Source: Collinsella sp. AF25-2LB (GTDB taxonomy: Bacteria > Actinomycetota > Coriobacteriia > Coriobacteriales > Coriobacteriaceae). Taken from it: a stretch of 64,000 nucleotides of DNA. The position numbers and the translations under genes were made by a program. The notes below the pieces were generated by a model. The model was not told where the DNA came from. It did no database searches and saw only the letters and a program-made list of their open reading frames with translations. Where the stretch lies: NCBI RefSeq assembly GCF_003458415.1, contig NZ_QRUF01000011.1, positions 13,719-77,718 of the forward strand, written 5' to 3'. Shown piece by piece: positions 4,236 through 40,540 of this stretch (within the stretch, counting starts at the first letter, position 1; each line of letters begins with the position of its first letter).

Positions 4236-4317
4236 AGGGTCCTCCTTGTTGAAGGGAGTTAGCGTACGTGTCGTATTTGCTTCAAAAAACCTAGATGTCG
4301 CTCACGTCAAGCTCGCG

Positions 4318-4354
4318 AACCGCCACAAAGGGGACAGGCACCTTTGTGGCGGTT
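4318..4354. repeat. Family-2 palindromic repeat, copy b
   Basis: Arms AACCGCCACAAAGG and CCTTTGTGGCGGTT. Compared with copy a, an A-to-G change in one arm is matched by T-to-C in the other, so pairing is kept. Confidence 0.85.
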
Positions 4355-4525
4355 TTGACGATCGGTTCGTGACGCTTATGCGAATACGGAATCCTCGTGG
4401 CGTGCCGAGGGCGACATGCAGGTTTTTCGACTATGACTGCCTTCCATGGCACACCTCCCTAAGGCCGGGCGCGGCGCGCTTTGGGTATCTCGTACCCGTT
4501 TTAATCCGCCCGTATTTTTGATGAG

Positions 4526-4672: not shown

Positions 4673-5356
4673 ATGGAGGCTTACAAGCAAGAGTTCATCA
4701 AGTTTATGGTCGAGTCCGACGTCCTTAAGTTCGGCAGCTTTACGCTCAAGAGCGGCCGTCAGTCCCCGTTCTTTATGAACGCCGGCGCTTACGTGACGGG
4801 CTACCAGCTCAAGAAGCTGGGCGAGTATTACGCCCAGGCCATTCACGATAACTTTGGCGATGACTTTGATGTGCTGTTTGGACCGGCCTACAAGGGTATT
4901 CCCCTGGCCGTCGTGACCGCGATTGCCTACCACGAGCTGTACGGCAAGGAGGTCAAGTACTGCTGCGACCGCAAGGAGGCCAAGGACCACGGCGCCGACA
5001 AGGGCAACCTGCTGGGCTATGAGCCCCAGGATGGCGACCGCGTGGTCATGGTCGAGGACGTCACCACCAGCGGCAAGTCCATCGACGAGACCTATCCCAA
5101 GGTCAAGGCTGCTGCCGATGTCGAGATCAAGGGCCTGATCGTGTCCCTCAACCGCATGGAGGTCGGCAAGGGCGGCGTGACCACCGCTCAGAAGGAGATC
5201 GAGGCAAAGTACGGTTTCCCCGTCGCGAGCATCGTTTCCATGGCCGAGGTCGTCGAGACCCTCTACAACCACGAGATCGACGGCAAGGTTGTCATCGATG
5301 ACGAGCTCAAGACCGCCATCGACGCCTACTACGAGCAGTACGGAGCTCGGGAGTAG
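4673..5356 (+). CDS. pyrE: Orotate phosphoribosyltransferase
   Basis: A 227-residue enzyme that joins orotate to PRPP, giving orotidine 5'-phosphate in pyrimidine synthesis. The PRPP-binding signature VVMVEDVTTSGKS is at about residues 123-135. The N-terminal FGSFTLKSGRQSPFF block is the substrate-binding hood typical of PyrE. Length fits. GAGAGGAG lies six bases before the ATG. It is a single-gene unit here, with no other pyr genes beside it. The stop is a tandem TAG TAG, and a structured repeat element starts immediately after it. Confidence 0.95.
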   Translation: MEAYKQEFIKFMVESDVLKFGSFTLKSGRQSPFFMNAGAYVTGYQLKKLGEYYAQAIHDNFGDDFDVLFGPAYKGIPLAVVTAIAYHELYGKEVKYCCDRKEAKDHGADKGNLLGYEPQDGDRVVMVEDVTTSGKSIDETYPKVKAAADVEIKGLIVSLNRMEVGKGGVTTAQKEIEAKYGFPVASIVSMAEVVETLYNHEIDGKVVIDDELKTAIDAYYEQYGARE

Positions 5357-5535
5357 TAGTTACGCGGTTTTACCAAATCGCGTAACGGCTCGACGCTGCG
5401 CGGGCCGCATTTGGACAATCTGACGTTCAACTTCAAGGGCACGACCGAAAGGTCAGCGCCCTTTCGTTTCACGTCACCTTGCCTCAAATGCGGCTCGCTC
5501 GCTGGCGTTGCCAAAACATCGGTGTTGCCGTGGTA
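5357..5535 (+). repeat. Family-1 structured 3' element, copy 1
   Basis: Hairpin A has arms TTACGCGGTTT (5360-5370) and AAATCGCGTAA (5375-5385) with loop TACC and one G-T pair. Hairpin B has arms GCCGCATTTG (5404-5413) and CAAATGCGGC (5485-5494) and encloses hairpin C, with AAGGGC/GCCCTT and GACC/GGTC closing loop GAAA. The conserved flanks are CGACGCTGCGCG and CGCTCGCTGGCG. Copies 2 and 3 have the same fold with different arm sequences. Confidence 0.85.
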
Positions 5536-5538
5536 ATC

Positions 5539-5595
5539 ATTGGGGACGTTCTTGTTTGACTAGTCGTTTAAGAACGTCCCCAATGACTAGTCAGA
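5539..5595. repeat. Family-3 palindrome, copy 1
   Basis: Perfect 15-bp arms ATTGGGGACGTTCTT (5539-5553) and AAGAACGTCCCCAAT (5570-5584), with GACTAGTC in the loop and again at the right edge. Related units lie at 5849, 8566 and 34798, three of the four directly after a family-1 element. Confidence 0.85.
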
Positions 5596-5665
5596 AACGA
5601 GCGTGGATAATCTCCCGGTTTTGGCTCGGTGACGGCCTCAAAGTGGGAGATTATCCACGCTCGTT
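5596..5665. repeat. Perfect 21-bp inverted repeat
   Basis: Arms at 5596-5616 and 5645-5665 are exactly complementary (inner part GATAATCTCCC / GGGAGATTATC) with a 28-base spacer. No second copy was found in the window. It lies between the convergent genes pyrE and rpiR. Confidence 0.85.
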
Positions 5666-5803: not shown

Positions 5804-5847
5804 AATGGCCGACCTAATGACGAGAAGTCGTTATTAGGTCGGCCATT
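5804..5847 (-). terminator. Palindrome downstream of rpiR, probable terminator
   Basis: Perfect 15-bp arms AATGGCCGACCTAAT and ATTAGGTCGGCCATT surround a 14-base centre that itself pairs GAC with GTC. It lies ~25 bp past the rpiR stop on the minus strand. No strong T-run follows, so the terminator role is inferred. Confidence 0.5.
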
Positions 5848-5848
5848 A

Positions 5849-5878
5849 GTCATTGAGGACGTTCTTAAATGACTACTT
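5849..5878. repeat. Family-3 half unit at the 3' end of rpiR
   Basis: Reads GTCATTGAGGACGTTCTT followed by AAATGACTAC, a single arm of the family-3 repeat. It overlaps the rpiR stop codon. Confidence 0.7.
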
Positions 5879-6727
5879 GAGCCCGGGCAGGCGGGTGTAG
5901 GGGAACGAGCGCTCCAGGAATTCGGCGCAGCGGGCGTAGTCTTTGGCGAAGTAGCTGCTGTAGAGCGAATCGAGCACGTATTGCACGGCGATGTGGCTTG
6001 CGAACTGCGTGATGCGGTGCGTCATGCTCTCGTGATCGCTCACCGTAAGGTAGGCGGCAAAGCCGGGGTGAATGCGCGCGCAGTAGGGCGTGCCGATGAT
6101 GATGACCGGGACATGCCGGCTGCTGAGGATCGGCAAGATTTTCTTGAGGTTGGGCGCAAGGCCGCTGTAGGAGATAACGATTGCCGCGCGGTCTGAATCC
6201 GAGGTAAGCGCCGTGCGCACCTGTGCCTCGATGTTGCCGTAGCATGTGGCGCTCTTGCCGGCGGAGAGCAGGCGGTCGCGGAACATTCCCGCTGGATAGA
6301 GGTTGTGCGAGCCCGTGTAGATGTCGACCTGTCGGGCGTTCGCGATGAGCTTGGCGGCGTGGTCGAGCTGCGTGGGGTCTAGCAGCTCCTGCGTTTCGGC
6401 CAGCGTGGTCTGGTAGAGCCCCTCCATGCGCTCCATAACCTGCGCAGGCGTGGAAGTGGCATCGAAGGGAAAGTTGATATCCACGTCGCGCCGGTTTCCC
6501 GCCTCGCTTGCTAAGCGAATAAGCTCGACCTTGAGATCTTTGAAGCCCTCGAGGCCGAGCTTTTTGCAAAAACGGTGCACGCTCGCAACAGAAACGTTGG
6601 TGCGCGCGGCAAATTCCTTAATAGAAAGCCCGCGGATGTCCTCGCCGATGGCAAGGGCTGCAATGCCGAGTTGTTGCTCGGTGGGGGTGAGGCCCTGCGC
6701 CTCGGTGATCTTGCGTTTGATATCCAT
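5873..6727 (-). CDS. MurR/RpiR-family transcriptional regulator
   Basis: A 284-residue regulator. The N-terminal ~75 residues are an HTH_6 domain (FAARTNVSVASVHRFCKKLG). Residues ~125-250 form a SIS sugar-phosphate-binding domain (IYTGSHNLYPAG, AIVISYSGLAPN). Such proteins sense phosphosugars and control sugar catabolism genes. The chosen start, ATG at 6727, is preceded by GGGAG; an upstream TTG (6757) would add ten residues without a better site. It is divergent from the PTS IIA gene at 7054, so control of that gene is plausible but unproven. The 3' end runs into the repeat cluster. Confidence 0.88.
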   Translation of the reverse strand: MDIKRKITEAQGLTPTEQQLGIAALAIGEDIRGLSIKEFAARTNVSVASVHRFCKKLGLEGFKDLKVELIRLASEAGNRRDVDINFPFDATSTPAQVMERMEGLYQTTLAETQELLDPTQLDHAAKLIANARQVDIYTGSHNLYPAGMFRDRLLSAGKSATCYGNIEAQVRTALTSDSDRAAIVISYSGLAPNLKKILPILSSRHVPVIIIGTPYCARIHPGFAAYLTVSDHESMTHRITQFASHIAVQYVLDSLYSSYFAKDYARCAEFLERSFPYTRLPGLK

Positions 6728-7590: not shown

Positions 7591-7613
7591 ACTGCGGCAT
7601 CCAAAGGATGTGC

Positions 7614-7646
7614 AAGGGTGGTCGGGTTTTCCGGCCACCTTTTTTA
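7614..7646 (+). terminator. Terminator after PTS IIA
   Basis: AAGGGTGGTCGG pairs with CCGGCCACCTT (one G-T pair) and is followed by TTTTTATT. Confidence 0.85.
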
Positions 7647-7826
7647 TTGCACCGCGGGGAAGCGTTTTATTGCACGTTTGGCGGGTTTGCAAACCGTTCG
7701 GACGCTAAAACGAACCGACCGCGCCTTCGCGTTGCCGAGGGTGTTCATAAGTGGATAGTATGGGCTTACTTATTACAACGTGTGCCGCGTCCGGGAAGCG
7801 CGGTGCCGCTCATTGGGAGGAACAAC

Positions 7827-8384
7827 ATGAAAAAGAAGCTGCTGCTTGCGCCCCTCATGGCCGTCTTGGTTGCATGCGTGGTCGTGCTTTCCGGTTGCGG
7901 AGGCCCTTCGGTTGAGGAACTCATCACCGAGGATCTTACGACGCAGTTTGACGAGGTCAAGAACGGTGGCGACGACTTCCTCTCTGGTCTGGAGGAGGCT
8001 TCGGGCGACGAGTTCGAGCAGCTGGGTATCGATCCCAAGGAGTATGCCAAGACCTATCTCGAAGGCTTTGACTACAAGATCGGCGACGTGACGGTCGACG
8101 AGGACAAGGGTGTCGCGACCGCCGAGGTCTCCATCACCTGCAAGTCCATGAACAAGATCGTCGAGGACTTCTCCACCCAGTATCAGGAGAAGGTCGCCGC
8201 GCTTGATGCGGTTCCTTCCGATGACGAGCTGTATAAGATGGCCGGTCAGGTTATGGTCGATGTGACCAAGGCCACCGAGCCCAGGAAGACCACGGTTATC
8301 TTCAAGTACACCTGCAACGACGACGGCGAGTGGTCTGCCGACGACTCCGTCAACTCCGAGATGATGGATGCAATGCTGAGCTAG
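7827..8384 (+). CDS. Secreted lipoprotein, DUF5105-like
   Basis: A 185-residue exported lipoprotein. Residues 1-24 form a type II signal peptide: basic MKKK, a hydrophobic core, then lipobox LSGC with Cys24 as the lipidated residue. The mature part is acidic and helical, with DYKIGDVTVDEDKGVATAEVSITCKS in the middle, a pattern seen in small Coriobacteriia and Firmicutes lipoproteins of the DUF5105 type. The function is unknown. GGGAGG precedes the ATG. It is a single gene, and the stop is followed after four bases by family-1 element copy 2. Confidence 0.8.
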   Translation: MKKKLLLAPLMAVLVACVVVLSGCGGPSVEELITEDLTTQFDEVKNGGDDFLSGLEEASGDEFEQLGIDPKEYAKTYLEGFDYKIGDVTVDEDKGVATAEVSITCKSMNKIVEDFSTQYQEKVAALDAVPSDDELYKMAGQVMVDVTKATEPRKTTVIFKYTCNDDGEWSADDSVNSEMMDAMLS

Positions 8385-8565
8385 TTCGTTGCGGCGTTTT
8401 ACCAAACGCCGCAACTGCTCGACGCTGCGCGGTCACCAGAGCGACAACTTGTCATTCAAAGAGGACGGCATGACCAGAAGGTCAATGCCGCCCTCTTTTC
8501 ATGCCAATTTGTTCGCTCTGGTGACCGCTCGCTGTCGTTGCCAAAACATCGGCGTTGCCATGGCA
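8385..8565 (+). repeat. Family-1 structured 3' element, copy 2
   Basis: The best-formed copy. Hairpin A has perfect 11-bp arms TTGCGGCGTTT (8389-8399) and AAACGCCGCAA (8404-8414) with loop TACC. Hairpin B has arms GCGGTCACCAGAGCGACAA (8429-8447) and TTGTTCGCTCTGGTGACCGC (8509-8528), one base bulged, with CGAC/GTCG pairing outside. Nested hairpin C (8458-8497) has arms AAAGAGG/CCTCTTT, CGGCAT/ATGCCG and GACC/GGTC closing loop AGAA. Confidence 0.88.
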
Positions 8566-8647
8566 GTCATTGGGGATGTTCTTAAATGACTAGTCGTTGG
8601 TGACGTTCTTGTTTGACTAGTCGTTTAAGAACGTCCCCAACGACTAC
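8566..8647. repeat. Family-3 palindrome, copy 2 (tandem)
   Basis: A half unit (GTCATTGGGGATGTTCTT then AAATGACTAGTC) is followed by a fuller palindrome built on GACGTTCTT and AAGAACGTCCCC around GACTAGTC. It directly follows family-1 copy 2 and precedes the end of the gph-like gene. Confidence 0.8.
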
Positions 8648-8693
8648 TTTCCGCGCAACGGTATTGCGGCGGCTGGGTTGAGCAGCACCAGCG

Positions 8694-34200: not shown

Positions 34201-34617
34201 ATGGCCGAGGACAATAGGAACAAACCGCTGTACATGATCAGCGTGGCGGCCGAGCTGACCGGCATGCATCCGCAGACTCTGCGCGTCTACGAGTCTAAGG
34301 GCCTGGTGAACCCCCAGCGCTCGGGCGGTAACACACGCCTGTATTCGCGTGCCGATATCGAGCGTCTGGAGCTCATCAACCAGCTGACTGACGAGGGTAT
34401 CAACCTTGCCGGCGTGGTGCGCATTCTCGATATGAAGGAGCGTGCCGAGGAGCGCGAGCGCGAGAACGAGAAGCTCCGCGCTCGCGTGCGCCAGCTCGAG
34501 GATGAGCTGCACGAGTACAAGATGCAGAAGAAGATCACCGCCCTGGCCCCGCGCGATGGCTCGGTTAACCCCGAGCAAGTCATGCGCAAGCTACTGGGCG
34601 CCGGCGGAGATCTCTAG
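34201..34617 (+). CDS. hspR: MerR-family heat-shock repressor HspR
   Basis: A 138-residue MerR-type regulator: an N-terminal HTH (MISVAAELTGMHPQTLRVYESKGLV), the typical HspR block RSGGNTRLYS, then a coiled coil (about 75-110). In Actinobacteria HspR, with DnaK as co-repressor, represses dnaK and clpB. It is last in dnaK-grpE-dnaJ-hspR, 72 bp after dnaJ. AAAGGGG precedes the ATG. Three bases after its stop begins family-1 element copy 3. Confidence 0.93.
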   Translation: MAEDNRNKPLYMISVAAELTGMHPQTLRVYESKGLVNPQRSGGNTRLYSRADIERLELINQLTDEGINLAGVVRILDMKERAEERERENEKLRARVRQLEDELHEYKMQKKITALAPRDGSVNPEQVMRKLLGAGGDL

Positions 34618-34797
34618 GTTCCGCCGTTCTACCGAACGGCCGACGCTGCGCGACGTCCGGAGCGACAATTTGTCATTCAAAGGGCAAGGCATGACCAGAA
34701 GGTCTATGCCTTGCCTTTTTCATGCCAACTTGTTCGCTCCGGACGTCGCTCGCTGTCCGTCCTCTACCTGCGGCGTTGCCTTGCTCCGGATGCGGTA
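34618..34797 (+). repeat. Family-1 structured 3' element, copy 3
   Basis: Hairpin A: CCGTTC (34624-34629), loop TACC, GAACGG (34634-34639). Hairpin B: GCGACGTCCGGAGCGACAA (34650-34668) with TTGTTCGCTCCGGACGTCGC (34730-34749). Hairpin C: CAAGGCAT and GACC against GGTC and ATGCCTTG, closing loop AGAA. Arms differ from copies 1 and 2 but pair; CGACGCTGCGCG and TCGCTCGCTGTC flank as before. Confidence 0.88.
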
Positions 34798-34827
34798 GTC
34801 ATTGGGGACGTTCTTAAATGACTAGTC
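34798..34827. repeat. Family-3 half unit, copy after hspR
   Basis: GTCATTGGGGACGTTCTT then AAATGACTAGTC, directly after family-1 copy 3. The next ~170 bp up to the hydratase gene show no further gene; GGGACACTC at about 34832 may be a decayed partner arm. Confidence 0.75.
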
Positions 34828-34997
34828 GAAAGGGACACTCTTGCGCCAAATCTGTCGGCCCACACCGGGCTCGTCCTTTGCTTTACTGAGATAAAGTGAA
34901 CGCGCAGATTCGTAACCCGCTCGCAACCGTTCTATGGCACGATATTGAACGAATGTATGCTATGCGCCCGAGCCTTTCGGGCAGAGTGGGAGACAGT

Positions 34998-38721: not shown

Positions 38722-38815
38722 GCTGCGTTTTCGTTGGGTCTTGAGGGACGCTAATAAATAGGCTTGCTTGATGCCGCCTCTGTTATCGGGGCGGCTTCTT
38801 TTTGTCGAAAACCGC
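38722..38815. repeat. 93-bp direct repeat, right copy
   Basis: Matches 37395-37487 apart from a few substitutions and one extra T. The two copies bracket paralogue A. Confidence 0.85.
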
Positions 38816-38846
38816 CACAAAGGGGACAGGCACCTTTGTGGCGGTG
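38810..38846. repeat. Family-2 palindromic repeat, copy e
   Basis: AACCGCCACAAAGG, GGACAGGCA, CCTTTGTGGCGGT. It uses the same GCC/GGC-paired variant as copy b. Confidence 0.8.
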
Positions 38847-38898
38847 GGGACGAGCTCGATGTTGTTGTGATCGTTGAGCGGCATGTTAATGGGCACCT

Positions 38899-39567: not shown

Positions 39568-39676
39568 ATGCGCTCCTCGAGACAAAGAGCTGTTGAGGAT
39601 AGGCAGAAATGGATATGTTCAGAGAACAATTCAAGTTTAATCTCATGGCGTGAGATGGTCGACCGTTAGCGTCGAA

Positions 39677-39712
39677 AACCACCACAAAGGTGCCTGTCCC
39701 CTTTGTGGTGGT
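39677..39712. repeat. Family-2 palindromic repeat, copy f (inverted loop)
   Basis: AACCACCACAAAGG and CCTTTGTGGTGGT flank TGCCTGTCC, the reverse complement of the loop in copies a and b, so the unit is inserted the other way round. Confidence 0.8.
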
Positions 39713-39801
39713 GGGGAGCGCGCGGCTTCTTTTGGTGATAGTGTTAGCCGGCGGTATCATTAGGACAAATGGCGCGGGTTTGCATTGTGAGGTGCTTTGC
39801 T

Positions 39802-40473: not shown

Positions 40474-40481
40474 AGACCGCG

Positions 40482-40517
40482 ACCACCACAAAGGTGTCTG
40501 TCCCCTTTGTGGTGGTT
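40482..40517. repeat. Family-2 palindromic repeat, copy g
   Basis: ACCACCACAAAGG and CCTTTGTGGTGGTT with loop TGTCTGTCC, in the orientation of copy f, just after the paralogue B stop. Confidence 0.8.
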
Positions 40518-40540
40518 TGCATGTCGTGGGAACACTCAGA

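Follow-up and report, generated by a model that had tools for sequence, protein, structure and literature searches.

Palindromic elements behind stop codons in Coriobacteriales, probably small non-autonomous mobile units whose fold is better kept on the strand opposite the gene

Results

Three window copies and their neighbouring genes

The window analysed here is a stretch of 64,000 nucleotides from Collinsella sp. AF25-2LB, and three copies of one folded element lie in it, all on the plus strand, at 5359-5504, 8388-8534 and 34618-34755. A sequence-only reading of this DNA had reported three plus-strand copies right after stop codons, with arms that are unlike between copies and still pair; strand, stop codons and pairing were all confirmed for the three copies. 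The genes and parts concerned are the following.

4673-5356, plus strand: gene upstream of copy 1, phosphoribosyltransferase domain (Pfam), pyrE-like; stop codon TAG at 5354-5356
5359-5504, plus strand: core of copy 1; hairpin A at 5359-5386, linker CGACGCTGC at 5391-5399
about 5395-5502, plus strand: long hairpin of copy 1; apex loop at 5447-5450, ends CGCTG
5505-5530, plus strand: right tail of copy 1 (GCGTTGCCAAAACATCGG...), conserved less than the core
7608-8384, plus strand: gene upstream of copy 2, without Pfam match; stop codon TAG at 8382-8384
8388-8534, plus strand: core of copy 2; hairpin A at 8388-8415, linker at 8420-8428, long hairpin to about 8532
8535-8559, plus strand: right tail of copy 2, conserved less than the core
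34201-34617, plus strand: gene upstream of copy 3, MerR-type regulator (Pfam), hspR-like; stop codon TAG at 34615-34617
34618-34755, plus strand: core of copy 3; hairpin A at 34618-34640 with its 3' side shortened, linker at 34641-34649

The order of parts in the window copies is hairpin A (GTTNCG..GTTN, the loop TACC and the complement), CGACGCTGC, one long hairpin and CGCTCGCTG. Several details of the sequence-only reading had to be revised. Hairpin A, which it had drawn in every copy, is 28 nt long in copies 1 and 2 and shorter in copy 3, where part of the 3' arm is missing; its hairpins B and C are a single long hairpin with internal loops; and its order of the arms was swapped, as TTGCGGCGTTT belongs to the copy at 8388 and TTACGCGGTTT to the copy at 5359. 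Among the motifs that it had called constant, CGACGCTGC and TCGCTG are nearly so over 26 copies, whereas the GCG beside the linker varies (AAG, AAA, GAG). The domains found fit its pyrE and hspR, and its 'lipoprotein' gene is the one that gives no Pfam match.

None of 200 dinucleotide shuffles of each window copy folds as well as the copy itself (z between -8.2 and -13.4, both strands). The predicted RNA fold is stronger on the bottom strand, that opposite the gene, than on the sense strand in copy 1 (-78.3 versus -72.6 kcal/mol), copy 2 (-98 versus -89.4 kcal/mol) and copy 3 (-88.4 versus -85.8 kcal/mol). The covariance model described below returns the three copies with E values of 2.9e-34, 1.5e-37 and 4.8e-31, values that are circular in part because all three copies helped to build it.

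Other repeats share the window. After each element stands a second family, GTAGTCATTGGGGACGTTCTTAAATGACTAC and its kin (5534-5593, 5847-5880, 8564-8651 and 34796-34829), which resembles GTAG-tagged REP units and of which a 16-mer, allowing up to 2 mismatches, has 7 matches against 0.01 expected. Copies of a third palindromic repeat, ACCACCACAAAGGGGACAGGCACCTTTGTGGTGGT, lie at 1405-1451, 4314-4360, 38806-38852, 39673-39719 and 40477-40523, and a palindrome, AACGAGCGTGGATAATCTCCC ... GGGAGATTATCCACGCTCGTT, at 5596-5665 adjoins elements in related loci too.

A covarying family confined to one order

The nearest genome available for comparison (G001) served as reference. Compared with it by BLAST, copy 2 gave 49 matches at E <= 10 and 31 at E < 1e-5, with 1.3e-61 as the best, some of these matches being one site read on both strands. 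A covariance model (R1) built from 26 aligned copies had matches in 39 of 43 Collinsella genomes, in 104 of 296 from the class and in 11 of 296 from the phylum; every matched genome of the class and phylum samples belongs to the order of G001. Such a model and a search of relatives had been proposed with the sequence-only reading, and the search did yield many further copies in related genomes. Within the genomes searched, the family is restricted to one order, Coriobacteriales. Matches per genome overstate the number of copies, as antisense and partial matches are counted (43 matches in G001 for 26 sites counted by hand). In a pattern scan of genomes with at least 120 matches, the 80 listed come from Collinsella, Gordonibacter, Slackia and uncultured relatives, and all names among those 80 appear to belong to this class.

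The general layout is a core of about 146 bp, or about 165 bp with the tail, that begins with a left hairpin (stem of about 12 bp, loop mostly TNNC, which is GNNA on the other strand), continues with the near-fixed linker and a long hairpin interrupted by conserved internal loops, and ends in ...TCGCTG. Rfam found one tRNA in the window and no family above the gathering score at the elements, which agrees with the earlier remark that no described family has this layout; 11 matches fell below the threshold, one of which (17.6 bits) overlies hairpin A of copy 2. Nor did Rfam match anything at ten loci that carry more distant copies. No description of this element was found among the papers listed by a limited literature search, and the family is apparently undescribed so far. 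Viral contigs gave no match to the one exact pattern used, a weak test.

Over the 26 copies RNAalifold found 52 pairs, 33 of them changed on both sides, and one-sided changes were few. With 97 copies drawn from two of the order's families, 50 of the 52 pairs had changed on both sides and 90.2% of the cells pair, in an alignment that leans towards the proposed structure because it was fitted to the model. The covariation score of the 97 copies is 0.676 versus 0.173 when shuffled and falls to 0.073-0.114 when the partner is slid by 1 to 3 columns, and none of 500 shuffles reached any of five pairing and covariation measures. The covariation supports selection on structure, as the sequence-only reading had supposed.

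Placement of the copies at stop codons

Two sets of copies were used. The Collinsella set holds 164 unique copies, 159 of which gave a hairpin start; it includes loci fetched for pyrE, hspR and a third upstream gene, which are therefore over-represented, and for this reason counts per upstream gene (38 clusters) are given as well. For the distant set 98 loci were tried, 94 gave a candidate and 88 passed, 8 of them (L053-L060) coming from other Collinsella and standing also among the 159. Common descent of the copies and overlap between the sets (L053-L060 and some others) mean that the counts are not independent and that the p-values are too small.

In the Collinsella set 141 of 159 copies have their first nucleotide at -1 to +5 nt relative to a stop codon that is in frame and on the same strand; counted per upstream gene, a copy stands at the stop codon in 33 of 38 clusters. 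Among the other 18 copies, judged by eye, some follow a terminator-like T run, some a truncated older copy and some no more than a short frame. Fifty-nine of the 88 distant copies lie between -3 and +7 of a stop codon. The expectation of many copies behind stop codons in relatives was accordingly borne out in both sets. The stop codon is TAG in 121 of the 141 copies, and the majority stop over the 33 upstream genes is TAG in 28, TAA in 4 and TGA in 1, against a background of 146 TAG, 136 TAA and 40 TGA in 322 genes of G001 (simple script). This bias is trivial in part, since 48 of the 121 copies start within the codon and contribute its G. RelE-like enzymes cleave at UAG; a link to such cleavage was considered because of the TAG bias and set aside.

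With origin and terminus placed by eye from GC skew, 24 of the 26 sites in G001 lie with the leading strand, versus 212 of 322 genes (P = 0.002). Among the cases giving a call, a convergent gene lies downstream in 64 of 151 from Collinsella and 24 of 88 from the distant set. A consensus scan for intrinsic terminators (G+C-rich hairpin, then T run) around copies 1 and 2 found none.

The fold is better kept on the strand opposite the gene

An A·C or C·A mismatch on the sense strand is a G·U pair on the bottom strand. When the long hairpins of the 88 distant copies were aligned with a strand-blind aligner, isolated A·C and C·A mismatches numbered 84 versus 36 sense G·U pairs, and were in excess in 43 elements versus 8. 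The 117 unique Collinsella bodies gave 64 versus 32, and 47 versus 26 elements, part of the excess stemming from chimaeric arms (positions 6-7). The alignment fitted to the model shows the same, despite its lean to the sense strand (172 versus 95; 25 versus 8 pair columns; 52 versus 17 sequences). Hairpin A has no such asymmetry (11 G·U versus 5 A·C, p 0.21), and its bottom strand is slightly more stable in 77 of 97 copies.

Of the two strands, RNA folding predicts the bottom one to be more stable in 93 of 97 and 137 of 143 copies, and DNA parameters favour it in 94 of 97 and 139 of 143. Control palindromes carrying random substitutions in the same arms gave a stronger bottom strand in 43 of 97. 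The bias has the same direction in both copy sets. In the conserved internal loops of the Collinsella copies the bottom strand has G·A, A·G and G·G where the sense strand has the mismatches T·C, C·T and C·C, and one of these is a tandem G·A. The fold of the long hairpin is better preserved by the bottom strand than by the sense strand.

Copies in frame within protein genes

Nine of the 88 distant copies sit in frame within, or at the end of, protein genes, which were identified by Pfam in five cases and named by likeness in the remaining four.

CarA, towards the C-terminus: L280, L281, L287, L322
RecQ: L298, L347
Acetyltransferase domain in a TsaD fusion, which we take to be RimI: L277
PhnJ, at the C-terminus: L342
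Dxr: L355

Compared with solved relatives, Dxr aligned at residues 6-141 and 202-387 and RecQ at residues 7-399 and 456-518, leaving about 60 and about 56 residues, respectively, almost without counterpart; both stretches contain the element. A survey of RecQ covered 30 fetched loci from 60 genomes searched, plus G163, and the linker was readable in 27 of the 31 loci. The element is recognisable in G163 (L298), G107 and G308, the loci concerned being L298, L347 (the same as L383) and L382. At L384, L385 and L386 the linker peptide is like the one that the element encodes (CGESPTKRPSGREEGLEPQDSAP in L385) and may be a decayed, retained insert, and the other readable linkers are short or unrelated. 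At three further loci (L293, L296 and L327) the frame of a gene that is presumably purC enters hairpin A, whose loop holds TAG or TGA in some.

Turnover at fixed sites

Truncated copies are followed by complete ones at L002, L005 and L092, and copies are nested within other copies at L330 and L353. Behind pyrE a copy stands at 19 of 20 loci of the copy-rich group, with a remnant at the twentieth, and at none of 10 loci in other Collinsella. Among 28 upstream genes seen more than once, hairpin A arms are non-identical in 17 and outer arms in 24, counts that take in single-base differences, and bodies of different type are found at one site; sister species thus carry unlike sequences at a shared site. 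Recombination between copies is suggested by chimaeric arms, for example CCGC facing ACGT. Three loci compared gave no clean empty site in a close relative, and no terminal inverted repeats were seen by eye.

At 13 loci, 10 of them distinct sites by their coordinates, an IS110-like element or its shared left end follows TCGCT, before a C, always in one orientation; the IS110-like element at L093 (2062-2850) scores 24.6 bits against PF01548, whose cut-off is 29, in a single frame that is partly masked. IS110 elements are known to target REP repeats. At another locus (L252, within 1204-2100) an IS200-like element (Y1_Tnp) splits a copy after the T-rich stretch behind the apex.

Candidate mobilising enzymes

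A comparison of Y1_Tnp and RVT_1 with copy number in 42 Collinsella genomes identified no mobilising enzyme. Reverse transcriptase was rejected in this role, as RVT_1 does not track copy number: among low-copy genomes 3 of 14 have it, among high-copy genomes 8 of 28, and 31 of the 42, including G001, lack it. A template-switching model was dropped along with it.

That some resident enzyme still serves the element, with a Y1 transposase (RAYT or IS200-type) as sole lead, seems unlikely. Y1 enzymes read single-strand hairpins, and the presence of Y1_Tnp goes with copy number: all 28 genomes whose model matches exceed 3 have it, and 6 of the 14 with 3 or fewer lack it, a pattern that is nevertheless confounded by kinship. 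In 20 fetched Y1_Tnp loci the single strong element match is the copy split by the IS200-like insertion, and two further matches are weak (E 0.038 and 0.82); these loci do not show the element flanking its own RAYT gene, and RAYT was not supported as a flanking partner. The GTAG-like repeats of the same genomes may be likelier partners of Y1. In relatives, GGGGACAGGC strings flank two Y1_Tnp genes (L262 and L264) in inverted order.

Discussion

We consider that these elements are probably small non-autonomous mobile palindromes of one order of Actinomycetota. The sequence-only reading had offered two options, a 3'-UTR RNA and a palindromic mobile unit, and it is the latter that we favour, because copies are nested, lie in frame within genes and show turnover at the same sites. 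A simple terminator or 3'-UTR RNA accounts less well than a mobile element for nested copies, for turnover at orthologous sites and for the IS110-like insertion at one fixed point. Some recombination machinery would recognise the bottom strand in its folded form, whether as single-stranded DNA or as RNA; recognition of that strand would let the stems drift as long as they still pair, while loops and linker stay, copies would last where the protein is left unbroken, and arm swaps would arise by recombination between copies. Put at its most specific, the proposal is a mobile Coriobacteriales element whose active form is the folded bottom strand (single-stranded DNA or antisense RNA) and which inserts at stop codons, the TAG bias perhaps reflecting how the target is chosen; this version is tentative, and we give it rather less than even chances. 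Against mobility, copies hold the same loci across sister species, as behind pyrE (19 of 20, plus the remnant), and the near-exact placement at stop codons would also fit a function at gene ends.

The explanations that compete with a mobile palindrome do not all exclude it, and their probabilities overlap. Hairpins that act in the sense strand of the 3'-UTR, ending transcription or protecting the 3' end of the mRNA, with arms that covary for RNA folding, would explain why the 141 copies at stop codons lie in the sense of the gene; the strong covariation, a sense strand that also folds far better than its shuffles, and an apex and T-rich 3' side that look terminator-like by eye are in keeping with such an RNA. 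It is nonetheless unlikely, as the fold is better kept on the opposite strand, the scan of copies 1 and 2 found no terminator-like site and some copies lie in frame within coding regions. Slightly better placed, although still improbable on balance, is an RNA of the antisense strand acting at the gene boundary, for example by halting antisense transcription before it enters the gene. The tolerance of G·U on the bottom strand and its stronger fold argue for this, as do the GNNA loop of hairpin A on that strand and the position of copies at gene ends. Behind copy 1 there are 2 promoter-like sites versus 0.3 expected, one of them, on the minus strand at 5678-5650, reading towards the element, whereas the same scan found none behind copy 2. 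Convergent genes are no general source of antisense RNA, given how few of the downstream genes are convergent (64 of 151 and 24 of 88), and copies in frame inside genes also speak against a boundary function.

It is less probable still that there is no selection on structure at all and that recombination or template switching between arms and between copies keeps dispersed inverted repeats palindromic. The chimaeric arms joining two alleles, the few one-sided changes in the 26 copies and the swapping of alleles among loci would follow from such a process. Being blind to strand, it predicts no excess on the bottom strand, whereas such an excess is seen in 93 of 97 and 137 of 143 copies, and the conserved mismatched internal loops would be corrected away.

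By their descriptions, the nearest kin of these mobile palindromes would be the Rickettsia palindromic elements (RPE) and REP and MITE repeats, and we assign the element to none of them. RPE are described as palindromic repeats of about 105-150 bp in several families, intergenic and in frame in conserved genes (PMC10969869, PMC2229807). Two of the families are CGTC repeats, a kind with no known dedicated transposase (PMC3733652). The likeness extends to the copies in frame in conserved protein genes here (Dxr, RecQ, the acetyltransferase, and the ends of CarA and PhnJ), but RPE belong to another phylum, and the resemblance is drawn from their descriptions. Most copies here, in contrast, stand directly behind stop codons, and the excerpted RPE accounts mention no fold of one strand, whereas this element keeps its fold better on the bottom strand.

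REP repeats are many-copy hairpins with fixed unpaired motifs, some within genes (PMC3733652), and targets of insertion sequences (PMC1525189). The GTAG- and CGTC-tagged kinds are given there as units of 20-40 bp with the tag at the stem end, whereas the element has two hairpins over about 146 bp with a linker between. CGTC-tagged REP are defined by an unpaired CGTC ending a stem of 8-9 bp with A/T pairs first and a loop of 4-5 nt (PMC3733652); here the bottom-strand CGTC is separated by about 4-5 nt from a stem that has about 12 bp and begins G-C, T-A, and the element falls outside that definition. Bacterial MITEs (ERIC/RU, YPAL, Correia, RUP) are described as about 100-200 bp long, with long stem-loops and some frames fused to genes (PMC2229807); most have terminal inverted repeats and many have target duplications, whereas terminal repeats were not seen by eye here. 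The double-hairpin elements of mitochondria are hairpin pairs held to be mobile, which lie in genes and spacers and stay in transcripts (PMC2800124, citing Paquin 2000); their layout is alike, but they are organellar, and the excerpt mentions no placement at stop codons.

The attC sites of integrons fold on the bottom strand, lie behind stop codons and have stems that vary and still pair. Their likeness to the element would be one of way of working only.

Protein-coding palindromes are best known from Rickettsia, and the system described here, in gut commensals, would be a second and larger one. With dozens of model matches per genome, near-exact placement at stop codons and a strand-specific fold, its mechanism is open to test. 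For annotation, it means that hairpin-rich 3' ends, and inserts of about 55 residues in the Dxr or RecQ of some of these bacteria, derive from the element.
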